A model generated the notes under the pieces. That model saw only the letters and a list, made by a program, of their open reading frames with translations. It was not told where the DNA came from and searched no databases. From the NCBI GenBank assembly GCA_022823725.1, contig JAJEHL010000035.1, positions 1-64,000 on the forward strand: a stretch of 64,000 bases of DNA. Direction: 5' to 3'. This document shows positions 9,729-17,599 of this stretch, piece by piece. The position numbers were made by a program, and so were the translations under genes. The stretch is from Candidatus Latescibacterota bacterium (lineage in GTDB: Bacteria > Latescibacterota > UBA2968). Numbering within the stretch: the stretch's first letter is position 1; every line of letters begins with the position of its first letter.

Positions 9729-12700
9729 ATGTTTGAAAACGGAACGATTCTCGACAACAAATACCAAATCCAGACACACCTCGGAACCGGAGGCATGGGC
9801 GAAGTCTATCGGGTTTTGGACCTGGAGCAAAGCCAGGAGTGCGCGCTCAAAATTTTGAATACCCTGGTGGACCAGAAGGTTGTGCATCGCCGTTTTCACA
9901 GAGAATTTCAGGTGTTGAACCGCTTCCATCACCCGCGCCTGGTCCGCACATACACCTGGGGCTTTGCCGAAGATCGCCCCTATTTTACAATGGACTATTT
10001 ACCCGGAAAGACATTGGAAAAAATAATCGCCGATCATGCATGTTTGGGACAATTCCGGGCGTCTCACTTCTTCGATTTAATACAACAACTTGCCGAAGGA
10101 TTGGCTTATGTCCATGCGCAGGGTGCGGTGCATCGCGATCTCAAGCCATCCAATATTATGGTTTTGGAAACAGAGGAGGGAATCGAAACCACGATCCTGG
10201 ATATGGGTCTGGCGAAACTCCGGCACCTGCATAGCGTTTCCATTACGCAGACAGGCGCGACGATTGGCACGGCAGAATATATGTCGCCAGAGCAGGGTAA
10301 GGGGTTGTGGGTGGATCATCGATCAGATTTGTACTCATTGGGCGTGATTTTATACGAGATGCTCACGGGCACACCACCCTTTTCCGGACAAAACCCAATA
10401 TCTGTTATCATGAAGCATATTCGAGAGATACCGCCCTCAATGGGCGAAATCAATATCGCTGTTCCTGATGAGATACAACAAATAGTGTTGAAGTTGCTGG
10501 CAAAAGAGCCTGTTGATCGTTATCAGTCCGCAGAGGAGGTGTTACGCGCCTTACCATCAAGATTTGTGCTACCCGATAATAAGCAGCGCGATGTGCCCAG
10601 AAAAGTTATGCGGCCACAATTTGTCGGGCGCGAATCCGAAATGAAGACATTGCGCGCGATGTTGAAGGATGTACAGGCTGGCAAACAGCGCGTGGTTCTG
10701 ATCTCCGGTGAGTCCGGTGTGGGAAAATCGAGACTAATTGAGGAACTATTGGGCGATGCGCTAATCCATGACTTTCTGTGTTTGAAAGGCACAGGTCAGG
10801 AAGAAGGTGGACAAATATACGGTGCGTTGACCGATGCTTTTCAAGGGACGATAGATTCGGCGACGGGGTTGCCCGATCCTGTAGAATCGGACAAGTTTTC
10901 TGTTATGGAGCGCTGGTTGCAGTTACTAAAAACTCTGCGACAGAAACAGCCCATTGTATTGTGTTTGGAAAATATTCAATGGCTTGATGAATTGACATTG
11001 GAATTTTTACAATATGTTTTGCGCGATCCAGACCCGTGTCCATTTTTGTTATGCTTGACCTGTCAATGGTCCAATATGGAACCGCTTTCAGAGGAAGTTG
11101 AAAATTTTATACACAGCAATGAACTTGCTAAGGCGACCCGGATTCAGTTGAAAAATCTACCGCGTAAAAAGGTAGAATATTTAGCGGCGTCGATGTTGGG
11201 GGAGCGGTCCATACCGCGAGATGCATTACAAACCCTGTTTAGAGAAACGGGTGGGCAACCCCTATTTGTCGTAGAAGCGGTGCGGACACTGGTGAATGCC
11301 GATGTGGTTCGGCAGAGTGTGTCCGGAGATTGGCAATGGGGAGAATTTCCCCAAACATTATTATCCGATGATATTTCAGAGATTTTGCACAGACGCATAG
11401 CTACTCTTCCTTCGGTGCAACAGAGAGTGCTGGAATATGCGTGTGTTTTTCTGAGTGATTTTTCTTTTGAATTATTGGCTGAGGTTTGGCGCGGCGATGA
11501 GTTGGAACTGTTAGATGTACTGGACGATCTGATTGCAGAAGGGCTTTTGACAGCTTGTGGAGAGGAGGAAGATCGATATCGATTTTCACAGGAATTGTGT
11601 CGGCGTGTAATTTACGATCGCCTGCAAAATGTGCGGCGGCGTCTGTTGCATCGAGAAATTGGCAATGCTCTGGAAAAGACGGAAGATGCAGAAGAACTGA
11701 CAGAAGAATTGGCGGATCATTTTGCAGCGGCAGGAGAACAAGATAAGGCTGTGAAATATACTCGCCTATCAGGCAAAAAAGCATTGGAAGTACAAGCCTA
11801 TCGCCAGGCAAGAATGCGGTTTGAGGCTGTGCGAGACTGGACAACGAATGACGCTTTTGAATCACCCGCAGATGCAATCGATTTTTTATGCGACTATACA
11901 AACGTTTTACGCTGTTGTAGTCAGCACAACAGCGCACTGGAACTTTTAGATGAGGCAAAAGCGTTATTGCCTAATGATCGGAACGATTTAAAGGCGCGTA
12001 TTTTGTGGAATGAAGGCATTATTCACAGCGTACTACAACATGGGGGAATAGCAGAAAGATATATGCTGGAGGCATTGCGACTTTATCGAGAATTGGATAA
12101 TCTCGACGGCGAAGTTCAGGTATTGAGTAGTTTAGCTCATTTGTGTGATGTGTCTGGACGGCACAAAGAAGCGATTGCATATATGCGACGAGAAATAGAA
12201 AAACATCGTGCGTTGGAAGAAGCCCAGAACAAGGCTATTGTACAAGTGCGAGAAGGTGTGGTTGCATTGGTGGAATTTCGATTTGAGACAGCCAAAGAAC
12301 ATTTAAAAGCGGCTGTCTGGACATCTCAGAAATTGGGACTTGAACACTATCGTATTAGGGCACTCAATTTACTTCAAAGAGTTTATTTTTATCTAAATAA
12401 TTTCAATCGTGCAGAAGCCGTTTGTCATGAAGTCATTAGTGAGTGGCAGAAGCGAGGCGTTGTGTACTGGGAAGCAGCAAATTTTCTCTGTCTGGGAGAA
12501 TTAGCACTGGAACGCGGTGATTTTTTAGAGGCATTGGAATATGCCGAGATCTCAGCAGAGCGATTTTTGGAAACATCGCGAAGAGATTATATTTATCGCG
12601 CTTATGCGACTGCGGCAACTGCTGCTGCGAAAATGGGAGATACAGAAACAGCTCTTGAATGGGCAAAAAGAGCCAGTGAGGGTACGCAACAAACATCGGG

Positions 12701-14537
12701 TATGTACACGGGCATATTGCCTCTGGTGTATGGTGGTATAGGTGTTGCTTTCGCTCAAGCAGGGCAAATTGTTGAAGCTGAAGAGACTTTTGAGCAGGCA
12801 ATTGAATGTCGGAAAGAATCAAAAGGCGACCACTGGGCGCGTGCATTGCTGATGGCAGGGGAGTTTTATCTCGAGCGCGGTGATGTACCAAAAGCGCAAG
12901 CACATCTCGAAGCGGCAAAACAGGCGTTTACAGAAATGGAAATGTCCTATTTTCTGGGGAAAACACAGATGTTATTAAATCAATTTGACGGGTCTTCTCG
13001 CAGTAGGGATGATGCCCCAACCCGTAGCTCTGAAATTTCAGTCGATACATTGTCCGTTGATCGCTTGCGCTTGCTTTACGATGTGAGCAGCGAATTGACC
13101 ACAGAGCGCGATGTCAAGGTACTATTAGATCGAATTTTGGGCAATTTGCTGGATGTTTATCCAGCAGAGCGCGTACTTGTTGCGCTAAAAAATGAGACCC
13201 CAAAAGACTTTGTGGTCAATGCGGTGCGCCACCACAATATAGAGGTAGATGATGCAGAAGAATTGAGCCGGGGTATTATTCGCCGCGTTATTGAAACAAA
13301 TGAACCCGTTTTGAGCTTTGATGCACAAACAGACGATAGGCTAAATCGGTATCAGAGCGTGATAGACTACGACATTCGGTCTGTATTGTGCGTACCTCTA
13401 TTTCATGTTAGCGAAGGTGTGATGGGTGCGCTATATGTGGATCATCGCGGCATGGGCAACACATTTTCTGAAGCAGACCAGACGTTTTTGCAGGCATTTG
13501 CGAATCTGGTGGGGGTAGCACTGGTCAATGCGAGGATGTACGAACAATTGAAAGAGAAAGCACAATATTTGCAGAAGGAGGTCGAAAAGCAGTACCAGCT
13601 TGACGATCTGGTCGGGCAAAGCGATGCTATGCAGACGATCTACTATCTTATCGAACGCGCTTCACAAAGTGATATACCCGTTCTTGTGCAAGGAGAGACA
13701 GGTACAGGCAAAGAATTGGCAGCGCGTGCCATACACTACAATAGCAGGCGCAAAGACCAGCCATTTTTCTCGCAAAATTGCGCCACACTATCAACAGAGT
13801 TGTTGCAAAGTGAGTTGTTTGGGTACAAAAAAGGCGCGTTTACTGGTGCGACTGAAGATCATAAGGGGATTTTTGAAGCGGCTGATGGGGGTACGGTTTT
13901 TTTGGATGAAATCGCCGATGCCCCACCACAGTTGCAAAGGAGTTTGTTGCGGGTGTTGCAAGAAGGAGAGATTCGGCGTGTGGGAGAAACAGAGGATCGC
14001 ACAGTGGATATACGCATTATTGCAGCGACCAATCGAGACTTAAAACAGGAAGTTGAAAACGGTTCTTTCCGCGAAGATTTATATTATCGGTTGCACGGGA
14101 TACAGATCGATATGCCACCTTTGCGACAACGCATTGAAGATGTGCCGTTATTAGCCGAACATCTGCTCACCCGAGCAAAAGAAGAGGCAAACAAGTCGGT
14201 TGGAGGACTGACAGTAGGTGCAATCAGGGCACTTACAAGTTACAACTGGCCCGGCAATGTGCGCGAATTGGAAAACAAGGTTCGGCTTGCGGTTGCATTG
14301 TCAGAAGAAGGTGATGAAATCACGTCCGATTTGTTTTCAGAAGCTGTCGGGCACGCGGTGTCGGGTGTCTCTGTCGAATATCAAAGGCATTTACAAGATC
14401 GTGTTCAGGAATATGAGAAATGGTTGATTATGGATGCGCTCGAAAAATACGAGGGCAATATTACGCATACGGCTAAAGAACTGGGGATAACGCGTGCTGG
14501 CCTACAGAAAAAGATCAATCGTTTGGGATTGAGATAG
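9729..14537 (+). CDS. Ser/Thr protein kinase fused to ATPase-TPR-GAF and sigma-54 activator
   Basis: Giant regulator of 1602 residues from ATG 9729 (an in-frame ATG at 9549 adds 60 residues without a domain). Order: Hanks-type kinase (glycine loop GTGGMGEVYRV ~19, HRDLKPSN ~134, DMG in place of DFG, YMSPEQ); AAA-type ATPase (GRESE, GESGVGKS ~326, LCLENIQWLDE); a long TPR-like helical region (~600-1080); GAF domain (~1104-1270); sigma-54 AAA+ module (GETGTGKE ~1321, intact GAFTGA ~1368, VFLDEIAD, RPL-type region) and Fis-type helix-turn-helix at the end (NITHTAKELGITRAGLQKKI). It should sense signals through kinase/TPR/GAF and drive sigma-54 RNA polymerase, most likely at the -24/-12 promoter just downstream. 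Confidence 0.9.
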   Translation: MFENGTILDNKYQIQTHLGTGGMGEVYRVLDLEQSQECALKILNTLVDQKVVHRRFHREFQVLNRFHHPRLVRTYTWGFAEDRPYFTMDYLPGKTLEKIIADHACLGQFRASHFFDLIQQLAEGLAYVHAQGAVHRDLKPSNIMVLETEEGIETTILDMGLAKLRHLHSVSITQTGATIGTAEYMSPEQGKGLWVDHRSDLYSLGVILYEMLTGTPPFSGQNPISVIMKHIREIPPSMGEINIAVPDEIQQIVLKLLAKEPVDRYQSAEEVLRALPSRFVLPDNKQRDVPRKVMRPQFVGRESEMKTLRAMLKDVQAGKQRVVLISGESGVGKSRLIEELLGDALIHDFLCLKGTGQEEGGQIYGALTDAFQGTIDSATGLPDPVESDKFSVMERWLQLLKTLRQKQPIVLCLENIQWLDELTLEFLQYVLRDPDPCPFLLCLTCQWSNMEPLSEEVENFIHSNELAKATRIQLKNLPRKKVEYLAASMLGERSIPRDALQTLFRETGGQPLFVVEAVRTLVNADVVRQSVSGDWQWGEFPQTLLSDDISEILHRRIATLPSVQQRVLEYACVFLSDFSFELLAEVWRGDELELLDVLDDLIAEGLLTACGEEEDRYRFSQELCRRVIYDRLQNVRRRLLHREIGNALEKTEDAEELTEELADHFAAAGEQDKAVKYTRLSGKKALEVQAYRQARMRFEAVRDWTTNDAFESPADAIDFLCDYTNVLRCCSQHNSALELLDEAKALLPNDRNDLKARILWNEGIIHSVLQHGGIAERYMLEALRLYRELDNLDGEVQVLSSLAHLCDVSGRHKEAIAYMRREIEKHRALEEAQNKAIVQVREGVVALVEFRFETAKEHLKAAVWTSQKLGLEHYRIRALNLLQRVYFYLNNFNRAEAVCHEVISEWQKRGVVYWEAANFLCLGELALERGDFLEALEYAEISAERFLETSRRDYIYRAYATAATAAAKMGDTETALEWAKRASEGTQQTSGMYTGILPLVYGGIGVAFAQAGQIVEAEETFEQAIECRKESKGDHWARALLMAGEFYLERGDVPKAQAHLEAAKQAFTEMEMSYFLGKTQMLLNQFDGSSRSRDDAPTRSSEISVDTLSVDRLRLLYDVSSELTTERDVKVLLDRILGNLLDVYPAERVLVALKNETPKDFVVNAVRHHNIEVDDAEELSRGIIRRVIETNEPVLSFDAQTDDRLNRYQSVIDYDIRSVLCVPLFHVSEGVMGALYVDHRGMGNTFSEADQTFLQAFANLVGVALVNARMYEQLKEKAQYLQKEVEKQYQLDDLVGQSDAMQTIYYLIERASQSDIPVLVQGETGTGKELAARAIHYNSRRKDQPFFSQNCATLSTELLQSELFGYKKGAFTGATEDHKGIFEAADGGTVFLDEIADAPPQLQRSLLRVLQEGEIRRVGETEDRTVDIRIIAATNRDLKQEVENGSFREDLYYRLHGIQIDMPPLRQRIEDVPLLAEHLLTRAKEEANKSVGGLTVGAIRALTSYNWPGNVRELENKVRLAVALSEEGDEITSDLFSEAVGHAVSGVSVEYQRHLQDRVQEYEKWLIMDALEKYEGNITHTAKELGITRAGLQKKINRLGLR

Positions 14538-14549
14538 ACGTTGGACAGG

Positions 14550-14567
14550 TGCATCCAACTGTATGCA
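14550..14567. promoter_or_regulatory. Palindrome 1, candidate upstream activator site
   Basis: TGCATCC, 4 bases, GTATGCA: an imperfect dyad centred near 14558, about 250 bases before the predicted sigma-54 transcription start. It is 22 bases (about two helical turns) from palindrome 2. The shape suits a dimeric Fis-type helix-turn-helix. Confidence 0.7.
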
Positions 14568-14571
14568 GTAG

Positions 14572-14589
14572 TGCATCCTACCGTATGCA
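14572..14589. promoter_or_regulatory. Palindrome 2, candidate upstream activator site
   Basis: TGCATCC, 4 bases, GTATGCA: the same arms as palindrome 1 with a different 4-base centre, centred near 14580 (about -228). Conserved arms with a variable core are what a protein-binding site would look like. Confidence 0.7.
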
Positions 14590-14653
14590 CCTGTATATCC
14601 TTATATAATTCAGACAATTACGTTGATTTTCTTATAAATAGACGATTTATAGA

Positions 14654-14671
14654 TGCATCCTGGCGGATGCA
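14654..14671. promoter_or_regulatory. Palindrome 3, candidate upstream activator site
   Basis: TGCATCC, 4 bases, GGATGCA: the most perfect of the three dyads (7+7), centred near 14662, about -146 relative to the predicted start. It lies 82 bases (close to eight helical turns) from palindrome 2, keeping all three sites on one face of the helix. Confidence 0.7.
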
Positions 14672-14733
14672 CTTGCGCCAGAGTCTCGCAGATTTAGCAC
14701 GAATAATTCTCAAATTTTATCTCTTTGTTTTTC

Positions 14734-14770
14734 AAGTACTTGAGCTGCCTCAAGTGCTTTTTTTTATTTT
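14734..14770 (+). terminator. Rho-independent terminator after the kinase-activator gene
   Basis: AAGTACTTGAG (14734-14744), loop CTGC, CTCAAGTGCTT (14749-14759), then a run of T. The stem is 11 base pairs with one G-T pair. It stops read-through from the regulator gene and insulates the sigma-54 promoter that starts 13 bases further on. Confidence 0.85.
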
Positions 14771-14782
14771 GAGATGGTTTTG

Positions 14783-14796
14783 GGCACGGATCTTGC
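14783..14796 (+). promoter_or_regulatory. Sigma-54 (-24/-12) promoter
   Basis: The element TGGCACG-N4-TTGCA is matched almost exactly: GG at 14783-14784, ten bases, GC at 14795-14796, with CACG and TTGCA in the conserved flanks. Transcription should start near 14808 and lead into the small peptide gene at 14854. Sigma-54 promoters require an AAA+ activator; one is encoded immediately upstream and another two genes downstream. Confidence 0.88.
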
Positions 14797-14853
14797 ACTA
14801 TAAAAAGGGCAAACCGTTATGACACAGGATTTTTCCATTACAAGGAGGATAAC

Positions 14854-15036
14854 ATGGCAACACGACGCAAATTGACTTTGGTCAACGGAGCAATAGATCA
14901 AGAAGGTAACATTCTTATGTATCGGGCTGAGAACGGTTTTGAAATTGGCGGCTGCGCCCCTTATTCTTTTACCGTTCCCCTCGTGCCTTTCCCTGATGAT
15001 GATGACGATAGGGACTATTTTGATCAGCCTGAGTGA
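14854..15036 (+). CDS. Candidate RiPP precursor peptide (60 residues)
   Basis: Preceded by a near-perfect ribosome site AAGGAGG (14842-14848), 5 bases before the ATG. The N-terminal ~30 residues are a plausible leader (basic MATRRKLTLV, then charged/neutral). The C-terminal half holds GGCAPYSF with the only cysteine (C34), a proline-rich stretch (VPLVPFP), a run of five Asp (48-52) and DYFDQPE. The sequence matches no family I know. The radical SAM maturase begins 28 bases downstream in the same sigma-54 unit. One Cys with nearby Asp/Glu acceptors fits a single thioether (ranthipeptide-like); FPD and YFD would also fit three-residue cyclophane motifs. The product class is inference. Confidence 0.72.
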   Translation: MATRRKLTLVNGAIDQEGNILMYRAENGFEIGGCAPYSFTVPLVPFPDDDDDRDYFDQPE

Positions 15037-15064: not shown

Positions 15065-16495
15065 ATGCTGTGCATTCAAAAATGCGACATGCATCTTTTT
15101 CAAACTGAAGAGCAAAAACAGCCGATTGTCTATCAGGTGGAGGCAGGTCTGTTTTTTAAATTGGATCCCCTTTTCCAGTCGGTTTTAGAGTGTTGCGAGG
15201 GCCTGTCGGCTTCGCAGGTTGTTCAGGTGCTAGCTGGCCAATACGAGGCAGAAGAAATTGTCGAGGCGATTGAGGAACTGGCTCAGGTGGGGTTGATTTC
15301 GGATGGTGCTCTACCTGTGGTATCCAATGTGCCGATAACAGAAGGGGTGGCAGCCTGTGGCGTATCGCAGACAGATCGTTTGCAGGTGTCGTTGCACGTT
15401 TCACATACGTGCAATATCCAATGCGCGTATTGCTTTGCCCACGGCGGGGATTACGGCGGCAAGGCCATGCTGATGCAACCCGATGTTGCCGAGCAAGCCA
15501 TTCGCTGGATTGTCACCGAGGCTCAGGCATTAGGACGGTGCCAGATTGATTTTTTTGGCGGGGAGCCGCTTTTGAACTTTCCGCTTCTACTCAAGCTCGT
15601 ACCATTCGCCAAGTCCCTGGGAACGCGATTGGGTGTGCAGGTAGGTTTTGGTATTGTGACCAATGGCACGCTGTTGACCGACGAGATGAAACAATTTTTG
15701 ATTGATGAAAAGTTTCAAATTAAGGTCAGCCTGGATGGCGGACGTAAGACACAGGACCGCATTCGCAAGTTTCACAATGGTTCTGGGACTTATGATGTTG
15801 TGGCAGAGAATGTTAAGAAACTGACTGCTGAGGCACCTGAGCGCATTCATTTGCAAGCCATTATGACCGCGTATGATATGGATGAGGATCAGATTGCCGA
15901 TGAATTGCGTTCTTTGGGTACTGAAAACGCGCTCATCGACCCGGCTGTTGTTTCACCGGATGCACCTTATGCAGTCCGGGAAGAACACCTGCCCGTTTTG
16001 AAGCAGCAAATCCACAAGCGCAGCCGGCGTGCGCTCAAAGCCATTCTGACTGGTGAAGAGAGTAAAGAGTTTGATTCGCGGATTCAAAAATTGCTGACGC
16101 GCGCAAAATCCTGTCACGGGTGTCTCGGTGGCAAACAGTATCTGGCGGTTGCAGCAGATGGGTCGATTTATTTTTGCTCGAGTTTGGCCGATGCGCCCGA
16201 GTTTAAGATGGGTGATGTGTTTGCGGGTATTGACCGCGAAAAGCAGCAGCATTTTGACGCGCAGTTCAATGTGAATAATCGTCCTGAGTGCAAAACGTGC
16301 TGGGCGCGCAACTTGTGTGGTGGCGGGTGTCTTTGGGATGCGCGGACGACGACGGGTGACCCGATGCATCCCAACCCGGTTGCTTGTGAACAGACGCGCT
16401 ATCGCTATGAATTGGCGATGGAAATGTGTATGGAAATTGGAGAAATGGATGCGTCTTTGTTGCAGCGACGTTATGATCTGGAAGTGGTATCATAA
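15065..16495 (+). CDS. Radical SAM-SPASM peptide maturase, SCIFF/ranthipeptide-like
   Basis: 476 residues from ATG 15065 (GAGGAG 8 bases upstream; an in-frame GTG at 15056 overlaps that site). The N-terminal ~100 residues look like a PqqD/RRE-type leader-binding domain. The radical SAM core has CNIQCAYCFA (the CxxxCxxC cluster), GDYGG.AMLM and DFFGGEPLLNF, a combination typical of SCIFF and QhpD-type thioether-forming enzymes. The C-terminal SPASM domain carries CHGCLGGKQYLAVAADGSIYFC and CKTCWARNLCGGGCLW plus a later Cys for two auxiliary clusters. The substrate is almost certainly the 60-residue peptide encoded just upstream. The exact bond formed is unknown. Confidence 0.88.
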   Translation: MLCIQKCDMHLFQTEEQKQPIVYQVEAGLFFKLDPLFQSVLECCEGLSASQVVQVLAGQYEAEEIVEAIEELAQVGLISDGALPVVSNVPITEGVAACGVSQTDRLQVSLHVSHTCNIQCAYCFAHGGDYGGKAMLMQPDVAEQAIRWIVTEAQALGRCQIDFFGGEPLLNFPLLLKLVPFAKSLGTRLGVQVGFGIVTNGTLLTDEMKQFLIDEKFQIKVSLDGGRKTQDRIRKFHNGSGTYDVVAENVKKLTAEAPERIHLQAIMTAYDMDEDQIADELRSLGTENALIDPAVVSPDAPYAVREEHLPVLKQQIHKRSRRALKAILTGEESKEFDSRIQKLLTRAKSCHGCLGGKQYLAVAADGSIYFCSSLADAPEFKMGDVFAGIDREKQQHFDAQFNVNNRPECKTCWARNLCGGGCLWDARTTTGDPMHPNPVACEQTRYRYELAMEMCMEIGEMDASLLQRRYDLEVVS

Positions 16496-16509: not shown

Positions 16510-16644
16510 ATGAAAAACTGGTATCCAATACGGCATCCAAATGGGGATGATAACGCCCTGTTAGATGCCGTTTATTTTGCTTTTGGGTGGGCGACAGATT
16601 GTTGGTGGATGGGAGGAACATATCAATCAAAAATTCGGCCTTGA
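16510..16644 (+). CDS. Small aromatic-rich ORF of 44 residues
   Basis: This frame runs from ATG 16510 to a TGA at 16642-16644. It encodes a short peptide with four Trp and three Tyr (MKNWYPIRHP at the start, FGWATDCWWMGG near the end) and one Cys. It overlaps the start of the second activator gene in another frame and lacks a strong ribosome site. It could be a second peptide, a regulatory leader or the displaced N-terminus of the activator after a frameshift, or chance. I report it because of its position inside the peptide operon. Confidence 0.3.
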   Translation: MKNWYPIRHPNGDDNALLDAVYFAFGWATDCWWMGGTYQSKIRP

Positions 16645-17599
16645 TAAATGGCCACTCATTGGACAGTATCCCTCACTCTTAGACGTACAAAAACGTGCGC
16701 ACCGCGTGGCAAATAGCGAATTGCCCGTCAACATCCGTGGAGAAACCGGCACGGGCAAGGAACTGCTCGCCCGTTATGTTCACGGCATTAGCCACCGCAA
16801 CAGGGGACCATTTGTAACCGTTGACTGCGGCATACTCTCTTCTGAAATGTCGCGCAGCGAGTTATTTGGACACGTTCGAGGTGCTTTTACCGGCGCCAGT
16901 GAAACGCGCACCGGACTGGTTGAATCTGCCCGGGGCGGTACGCTATTCCTCGATGAAGTGGGCGAATTGCCAGCCAACCTTCAGTTGCAATTGCTACGCC
17001 TGGTACAGGAACAGGAATTTCGCCGCGTAGGCGAAGCATCCATGCGCCGGTCCGACGTGCGCCTGATCACTGCGACACACTGTAACTTGCGAAAAATGGT
17101 GCGAAAAGGGACTTTCCGAGAAGATCTCTATTACCGCCTAAATGTCGTACCCCTGCATTTGCCACCCTTGCGGAAGCGACTGAGCGATCTGCCGCTTTTG
17201 GTCACGCATTTTTCTCAGAGCATGAAAGGATACATGCGTGCATTTTCCCCCGAAGTGATTCAAAGGATGTCGCGTTATGCATGGCCGGGCAATGTTCGGG
17301 AACTACAACACGAAGTTGCCCGATTGATGGTCATGAGCGAAGGTAAAATTATCCGAGTATCCGACCTGCGCCCCTGCATTCGAGGGGCAAACGCCCAAGT
17401 TGATGCCTTTGACCTCCCGTTTAAGGAAGCCAGACAACTGGCGAACAGCCGGTTTATGCGAGAGTATCTTCACAGAGCTTTGCAGAGAACACAGGGCAAT
17501 GTAACCCTGGCAGCACAACAATGCGGGATTGGCCGACAGTATTTCCAGTTGCGTATGTCCGAGTACGATCTAAAATCGGCATCTTACAAACAAAAATAA
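16565..17599 (+). CDS. Sigma-54-dependent activator without sensor domain
   Basis: Protein of 344 residues consisting of an AAA+ module (GETGTGKE, ELFGHVRGAFTGASE with intact GAFTGA, TLFLDEVGELP, FREDLYYRLNVVPLHLPPLRKR, YAWPGNVRELQHE) and a C-terminal Fis-type helix-turn-helix (TQGNVTLAAQQCGIGRQYFQLRM). Only about 30 residues precede the AAA+ core, so it is constitutively active or controlled by a partner. It is third in the peptide unit and is followed by a terminator, so it could amplify its own operon. The start is uncertain: ATG 16565 has no good ribosome site, while GGGAGG occurs at 16610 without a standard in-frame start nearby. Confidence 0.88.
   Translation: MPFILLLGGRQIVGGWEEHINQKFGLDKWPLIGQYPSLLDVQKRAHRVANSELPVNIRGETGTGKELLARYVHGISHRNRGPFVTVDCGILSSEMSRSELFGHVRGAFTGASETRTGLVESARGGTLFLDEVGELPANLQLQLLRLVQEQEFRRVGEASMRRSDVRLITATHCNLRKMVRKGTFREDLYYRLNVVPLHLPPLRKRLSDLPLLVTHFSQSMKGYMRAFSPEVIQRMSRYAWPGNVRELQHEVARLMVMSEGKIIRVSDLRPCIRGANAQVDAFDLPFKEARQLANSRFMREYLHRALQRTQGNVTLAAQQCGIGRQYFQLRMSEYDLKSASYKQK

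Follow-up and report, generated by a model that had tools for sequence, protein, structure and literature searches.

Three palindromic dyads as candidate sigma-54 enhancer sites before a RiPP-like operon in Candidatus Latescibacterota

In the genome of a Candidatus Latescibacterota bacterium, a stretch of 64,000 nucleotides (the window) contains three 18-bp dyads between the gene for a large sigma-54 activator, P0001, and a -24/-12 promoter. The dyads are most probably enhancer sites of this promoter, at 14782-14797, where they would be bound by P0001 and would activate a downstream operon for a putative precursor peptide and a radical SAM enzyme; the probability of this reading is put at roughly 0.88. 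It is supported by the position and layout of the sites, by their conservation together with the promoter before orthologous sister operons, by an upstream activator with AAA+, GAFTGA and helix-turn-helix (HTH) elements, by a genomic RpoN and by covariation between the dyads and the P0001 recognition helix. The features are as follows.

9729-14537, + strand: P0001, sigma-54 activator with kinase, AAA_16, TPR, GAF and AAA+ (GAFTGA) domains and a C-terminal Fis-type HTH
14550-14567, no strand: dyad 1, TGCATCC AACT GTATGCA, centre -249.5; exact pattern match, conserved in sister loci
14572-14589, no strand: dyad 2, TGCATCC TACC GTATGCA, centre -227.5; exact pattern match, conserved in sister loci
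14608-14620, no strand: degenerate IHF-like element ATTCAGACAATTA with 2 mismatches, between dyads 2 and 3
14654-14671, no strand: dyad 3, TGCATCC TGGC GGATGCA, centre -145.5; exact pattern match, fully symmetric
14734-14767, + strand: inverted repeat AAGTACTTGAG-N4-CTCAAGTGCTT followed by a T run, read from the sequence, between the dyads and the promoter; likely intrinsic terminator of the P0001 transcript
14782-14797, + strand: -24/-12 promoter GGGCACGGATCTTGCA, with GG at 14783-14784 and GC at 14795-14796; predicted +1 at about 14808
14854-15036, + strand: P0004, 60-aa peptide with a conserved start, variable middle and acidic tail; no NCBIfam match
15065-16495, + strand: P0002, radical SAM/SPASM peptide maturase-like enzyme (PF04055, PF13186)
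16565-17599, + strand: P0003, second sigma-54 activator, within the driven operon; complete AAA+/HTH_8, without a recognisable sensor domain

The dyads, the promoter and the driven operon

A first-pass annotation had described palindromes of the form TGCATCC-N4-GKATGCA at 14550, 14572 and 14654, with conservation limited to their arms, and exact matches are indeed found at all three positions, far above chance. When at most one mismatch is allowed, the 64 kb contain 6 strand-hits where 0.05 would be expected, a count that none of 100 dinucleotide shuffles reaches, and three 18-bp dyads with one common arm arise in 0 of 1000 dinucleotide shuffles of the intergenic stretch. The centres computed from the predicted +1 agree with the earlier estimates of about -250, -228 and -146, and they fall within the range typical for sigma-54 enhancers, roughly 80-250 bp upstream of the promoter. 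Across 11 loci of the Gln class, defined below by the activator helix, the arm columns have a mean majority identity of 0.955 (34 of 42 invariant) against 0.636 (0 of 12 invariant) for the N4 columns. The earlier spacings of 22 and 82 bp are likewise correct, but the description of the sites as evenly phased near whole helical turns did not survive. At 10.5 bp per turn these spacings correspond to 2.1 and 7.8 turns, and even phasing was discarded as a conserved property because relatives have a first spacing of either 18-19 or 22 bp, with differences of 3 bp between orthologues.

The promoter core is invariant at 14 of 14 columns across the Gln-class loci. Genome-wide motif work consisted of pattern searches with the reversed pattern as control, and the sigma-54 promoter pattern TGGCACGNNNNTTGCW has 20 matches in the host genome compared with 0 for its control. 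Each of the 11 genus genomes, that of the host included, encodes RpoN (PF04552) once. The putative terminator is kept in the complete cassettes of relatives. The block homologous to the IHF-like element matches WATCAANNNNTTR perfectly in 10 of 24 aligned rows and carries its 2 mismatches in the window; the host genome has four HU/IHF-family genes, and the element may have a role at this promoter.

Since the repeats sit between the P0001 stop codon and the terminator, with 7-nt arms and a 4-nt loop, they could in principle fold as hairpins in the P0001 transcript, within its 3' untranslated region, and act in processing or attenuation. This is very improbable and was set aside: a C-T mismatch interrupts the stem in two of the three window dyads, sister dyads of the His class are symmetric at merely 2-6 of 7 positions even though their half-sites are kept, and the same dyads stand upstream of promoters that have no P0001 gene in front. 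Moreover, changes in the dyads track the DNA-reading helix of a protein.

The ensemble downstream of the promoter looks like a RiPP cluster, in that a radical SAM enzyme with a SPASM domain (P0002; PF13186 at 23.0 bits against a cut-off of 21.5) adjoins the small gene of P0004, a probable RiPP precursor. P0002 passes no NCBIfam cut-off among the best 25 matches listed. Precursor-like peptides of sister loci have a common start, KLTLINGxID, an acidic tail and a highly variable middle. On the 5' side of P0001 lie genes for an ABC transporter, a membrane protein and a CAAX-type protease.

P0001 and the covariation of helix and dyads

P0001 has an inferred start at 9729, the open reading frame itself opening at TTG 9549; its domain scores include 248 bits for PF00158 and 41 bits for HTH_8, and the GAFTGA motif is read in the translation. 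The C-terminal DNA-binding domain spans about residues 1545-1602, and its recognition helix is R-A-G-L-Q-K-K. A gapless alignment with Fis places its Arg at Arg85 and its Gln at Arg89, with Asn and Thr at Asn73 and Thr75. Crystal structures of Fis on DNA show Arg85 in contact with the G at +/-7 and touching the T at +/-8; Arg89 meets the backbone or approaches, and can reach, the -6 base (PMC4784862). The half-site order T-G-(C/T) fits these contacts, the constant Arg pairing with the constant T-G and the variable Fis-89 position with the variable third base.

The activator 3' ends and intergenic DNA of genus genomes and one further record were compared. Sister activators carry the helices R-V-G-L-H-K-K, R-V-G-L-Y-K-K and R-[AI]-S-L-Y-R-K. 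The dyad arm is TGCATCC in the Gln class, TGTAAAC in the Tyr class and TGTATCA in the Ser-Leu-Tyr class; in the His class it is mostly TGTATCC, with TGTAAAC or TGTATAT as the other arm. The third base of the half-site is C in 66 of 66 cases where the Fis-89 equivalent is Gln and T in 67 of 70 where it is His or Tyr, and all six half-sites of a locus change jointly with the recognition helix of its activator. Over 20 loci, HTH distance correlates with dyad distance at r 0.77, compared with r 0.07 for the AAA+ domain. It is because of this covariation that P0001 is regarded as the putative binder, and it is likely to be the reader of the dyads.

The HTH-coding end of P0001 and dyad 1 are only about 12 bp apart and the copies recombine, so linkage may account for part of the correlation. 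In its extreme form this would mean that gene conversion moves the HTH end with its adjoining DNA and that the dyads bind something else, a hitch-hiking account that fits with a correlation between other intergenic DNA and the dyads (r 0.49) and with AAA+ and radical-SAM trees in which loci are not cleanly grouped by class. Such scrambled trees also indicate that copies were shuffled while helix and dyads stayed matched. The account is improbable, although slightly less so than RNA hairpins: the six half-sites change symmetrically and in concert over 120 bp, which is harder to explain by linkage, whereas the intervening DNA shows no such change; HTH and dyads keep a partial correlation of 0.68 after removal of AAA+ and flanking intergenic distance (permutation p 0.0005, n = 20); and in the Fis-DNA structure the residue that varies lies next to the base that varies. 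Only three helix/dyad pairs are independent on the tree, of which one lies on well-supported branches and is concordant. Between sister loci the radical SAM genes share about 90% identity, but their tree is scrambled, which points to frequent recombination.

The other candidate reader is P0003, which might bind the dyads alone or together with P0001. It is a complete AAA+/HTH_8 activator found beside Gln-class (TGC) loci, and its helix, R-Q-Y-F-Q-L-R, has Arg and Gln at Fis positions 85 and 89 and is invariant among genus copies with a readable C-terminus. P0003 is, however, present once per genome, whereas several dyad classes exist, also before operons that lack it (those of the His class, those of the Tyr class and, in genome G006, the second Gln locus), and a constant helix cannot account for class changes that track P0001. 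As sole reader P0003 is thus disfavoured, and participation of any kind is unlikely; P0001 is the favoured reader. With its Gln at position 89 and its place beside Gln-class loci, P0003 may nevertheless share the dyads, and since it lacks a sensor domain and lies inside the driven operon, its binding would form a positive feedback loop. Apparent decay of P0003 in two relatives was discounted, as the in-frame stop codons lie 5' of the likely true start.

The residue-to-base rule has limits. Within the genus, a more distant activator in genome G008 has Gln at the key position but mixed TGC/TGT half-sites, and in an order-level relative (G017) the activator has Gln and no recognisable dyads were found. 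A residue code valid beyond the genus is therefore not supported, and the rule holds among close sister copies only. In another genus of the family (G014, locus L020), three 18-bp dyads with the arm TGATAAG lie upstream of a radical SAM gene, and the helix is R-V-A-L-G-Q-K. These TGATAA dyads are suggestive only as comparable sites, with 0 of 1000 shuffles matching them at a strict setting and 45 of 500 at a relaxed one.

Sister cassettes and operons without an adjacent activator

The first-pass annotation had taken the absence of dyads before orthologous operons as evidence against its reading, and had proposed a genome scan for the motif. Three dyads of the same layout precede every sister operon that has a readable, complete intergenic region. 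Readable complete cassettes consist of two close dyads, a third dyad 78-82 bp on (98 in one case), the terminator and the promoter, with 144-147 bp from dyad 3 to +1 in all sister loci compared. Exact matches to TGCATMC-N4-GKATGCA occur in 9 of 11 genus genomes, solely in clusters of two or three sites with this layout, and the reversed control gives 0. Within the host genome the only other pair without mismatch is C49:43899-43935, which has its own terminator and promoter. A lone one-mismatch dyad at C31:51485 has no recognisable promoter downstream and was set aside.

That pair belongs to a locus (L004, G000:C49:42399-45416) in which the 3' end of a decayed activator is followed by dyads at 1501 and 1520, terminator and sigma-54 promoter, all retained without an intact activator or radical SAM gene. 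A His-class sister locus of the host (L076, G000:C35:189000-202000) has an activator split into overlapping matches 1-442 and 426-1602, apparently by a frameshift, and an intact radical SAM gene. At another host locus (L071, G000:C32:42500-52794) an activator of the Ser-Leu-Tyr class and TGTATCA dyads accompany a different driven operon, with no radical SAM gene found within 4 kb. The same terminator and promoter also occur with TGTATAA-type repeats (L155, L156 and L158, on G000:C45, G005:C199 and G010:C430), and some of these cassettes follow activators with the helix R-D-G-L-I-K-K.

Five clusters in relatives precede operons that have no adjacent activator and whose products are secreted or lipoprotein-like, from which action in trans is inferred. 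Four of these loci (L120, L121, L122 and L123, on G001:C8, G001:C55, G003:C6 and G003:C149) combine an enhancer-terminator-promoter cassette with fibronectin-type/Ig-like and lipoprotein-like products, and they form an apparent satellite regulon. In L124 (G007:C1:1004000-1017000, near 1010656-1010900), formylglycine-enzyme-like lipoprotein genes are preceded by two dyads of Gln type and, in third place, one of His type, TGTATCC TGCC GTATACA; no activator is adjacent, and this is a possible dual-input promoter.

Proposed mechanism and relation to known systems

The analysis established the sites and their layout, their conservation and covariation, the presence of RpoN and the domains of the proteins; binding, looping, the signal and the assignment of activator to target are predictions. 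P0001 would bind the three dyads as dimers of its Fis-type DNA-binding domain. In every half-site the conserved Arg that opens the recognition helix would read T-G, and the Gln four positions further along would contribute to the choice of C as third base. A trigger to the kinase/GAF sensory part would cause the AAA+ ring to assemble on the dyads, the DNA would loop, perhaps aided by a bend separating dyad 2 from dyad 3, and RpoN-polymerase would then open the promoter that serves the precursor and radical-SAM genes. The terminator, placed between the dyads and this promoter, would stop the P0001 transcript from running into the operon. Where relatives carry the cassette before other operons, it would respond in trans to the same protein.

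Sigma-54 enhancers with Fis-type activators are already well known; the motif and its probable cognate, in a largely uncultured phylum, are new. The NtrC box is the 17-bp TGCACCAnnnTGGTGCA (PMC8743547), and NtrC-type systems share with the present one symmetric half-sites starting with TGCA, a Fis-type HTH and the placing of more than one site ahead of a -24/-12 promoter (PMC8743547). The dyads do not match that 17-bp sequence and were not classed as NtrC boxes: they are 18 bp long, TGCATMC-N4-GKATGCA, with position 5 occupied by T rather than C, and P0001 has kinase, GAF and TPR sensors but no receiver domain. Activators of Desulfovibrio vulgaris have predicted enhancer motifs with TGT and ACA half-sites 9, 11 or 12 bp apart (PMC4641369), and the TGT-N12-ACA form agrees exactly with the 18-bp geometry seen in dyads of the His and Tyr classes (PMC4641369); those motifs belong to different activators, however, and their similarity does not always track that of the DNA-binding domains (PMC4641369). 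Fis sites, with a 15-bp core and G at +/-7, resemble the dyads in the HTH fold, the equivalent Arg, Asn and Thr and a G near the same offset. Unlike the dyads, whose arms are strongly conserved, they are read mainly through DNA shape and need an AT-rich centre, and the dyads are one base pair wider than either Fis sites or the NtrC box. Nla28 is a sigma-54 activator that drives natural-product genes in Myxococcus (PMC7910581). The pairing of such an activator with natural-product genes is shared (PMC7910581), the operon here being putatively RiPP-like, but Nla28 uses 8-bp tandem repeats before PKS/NRPS genes in contrast to palindromes before a radical-SAM peptide operon.

Searches of an open-access literature library found no report of paired divergence among sister modules. 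A broader proposal, tentative and at somewhat below even odds, is that sigma-54 modules which are copied and recombine in this genus stay separate through matched changes, on the protein side of Gln, His or Tyr at the Fis-89 equivalent and on the DNA side of all half-sites of a movable enhancer-terminator-promoter cassette. This would give several insulated circuits per cell, satellite operons regulated in trans and at least one promoter of mixed sites, that of G007. Such paired changes of site and helix in sister copies illustrate a way in which bacterial switches may remain separate after duplication. The sister modules also offer a natural test series for DNA choice by Fis-type activators, with the paired residue and base named and adjacent in the Fis-DNA structure. 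Moreover, the motif and its probable cognate provide a handle on when the RiPP-like peptide operons of a largely uncultured candidate phylum switch on.
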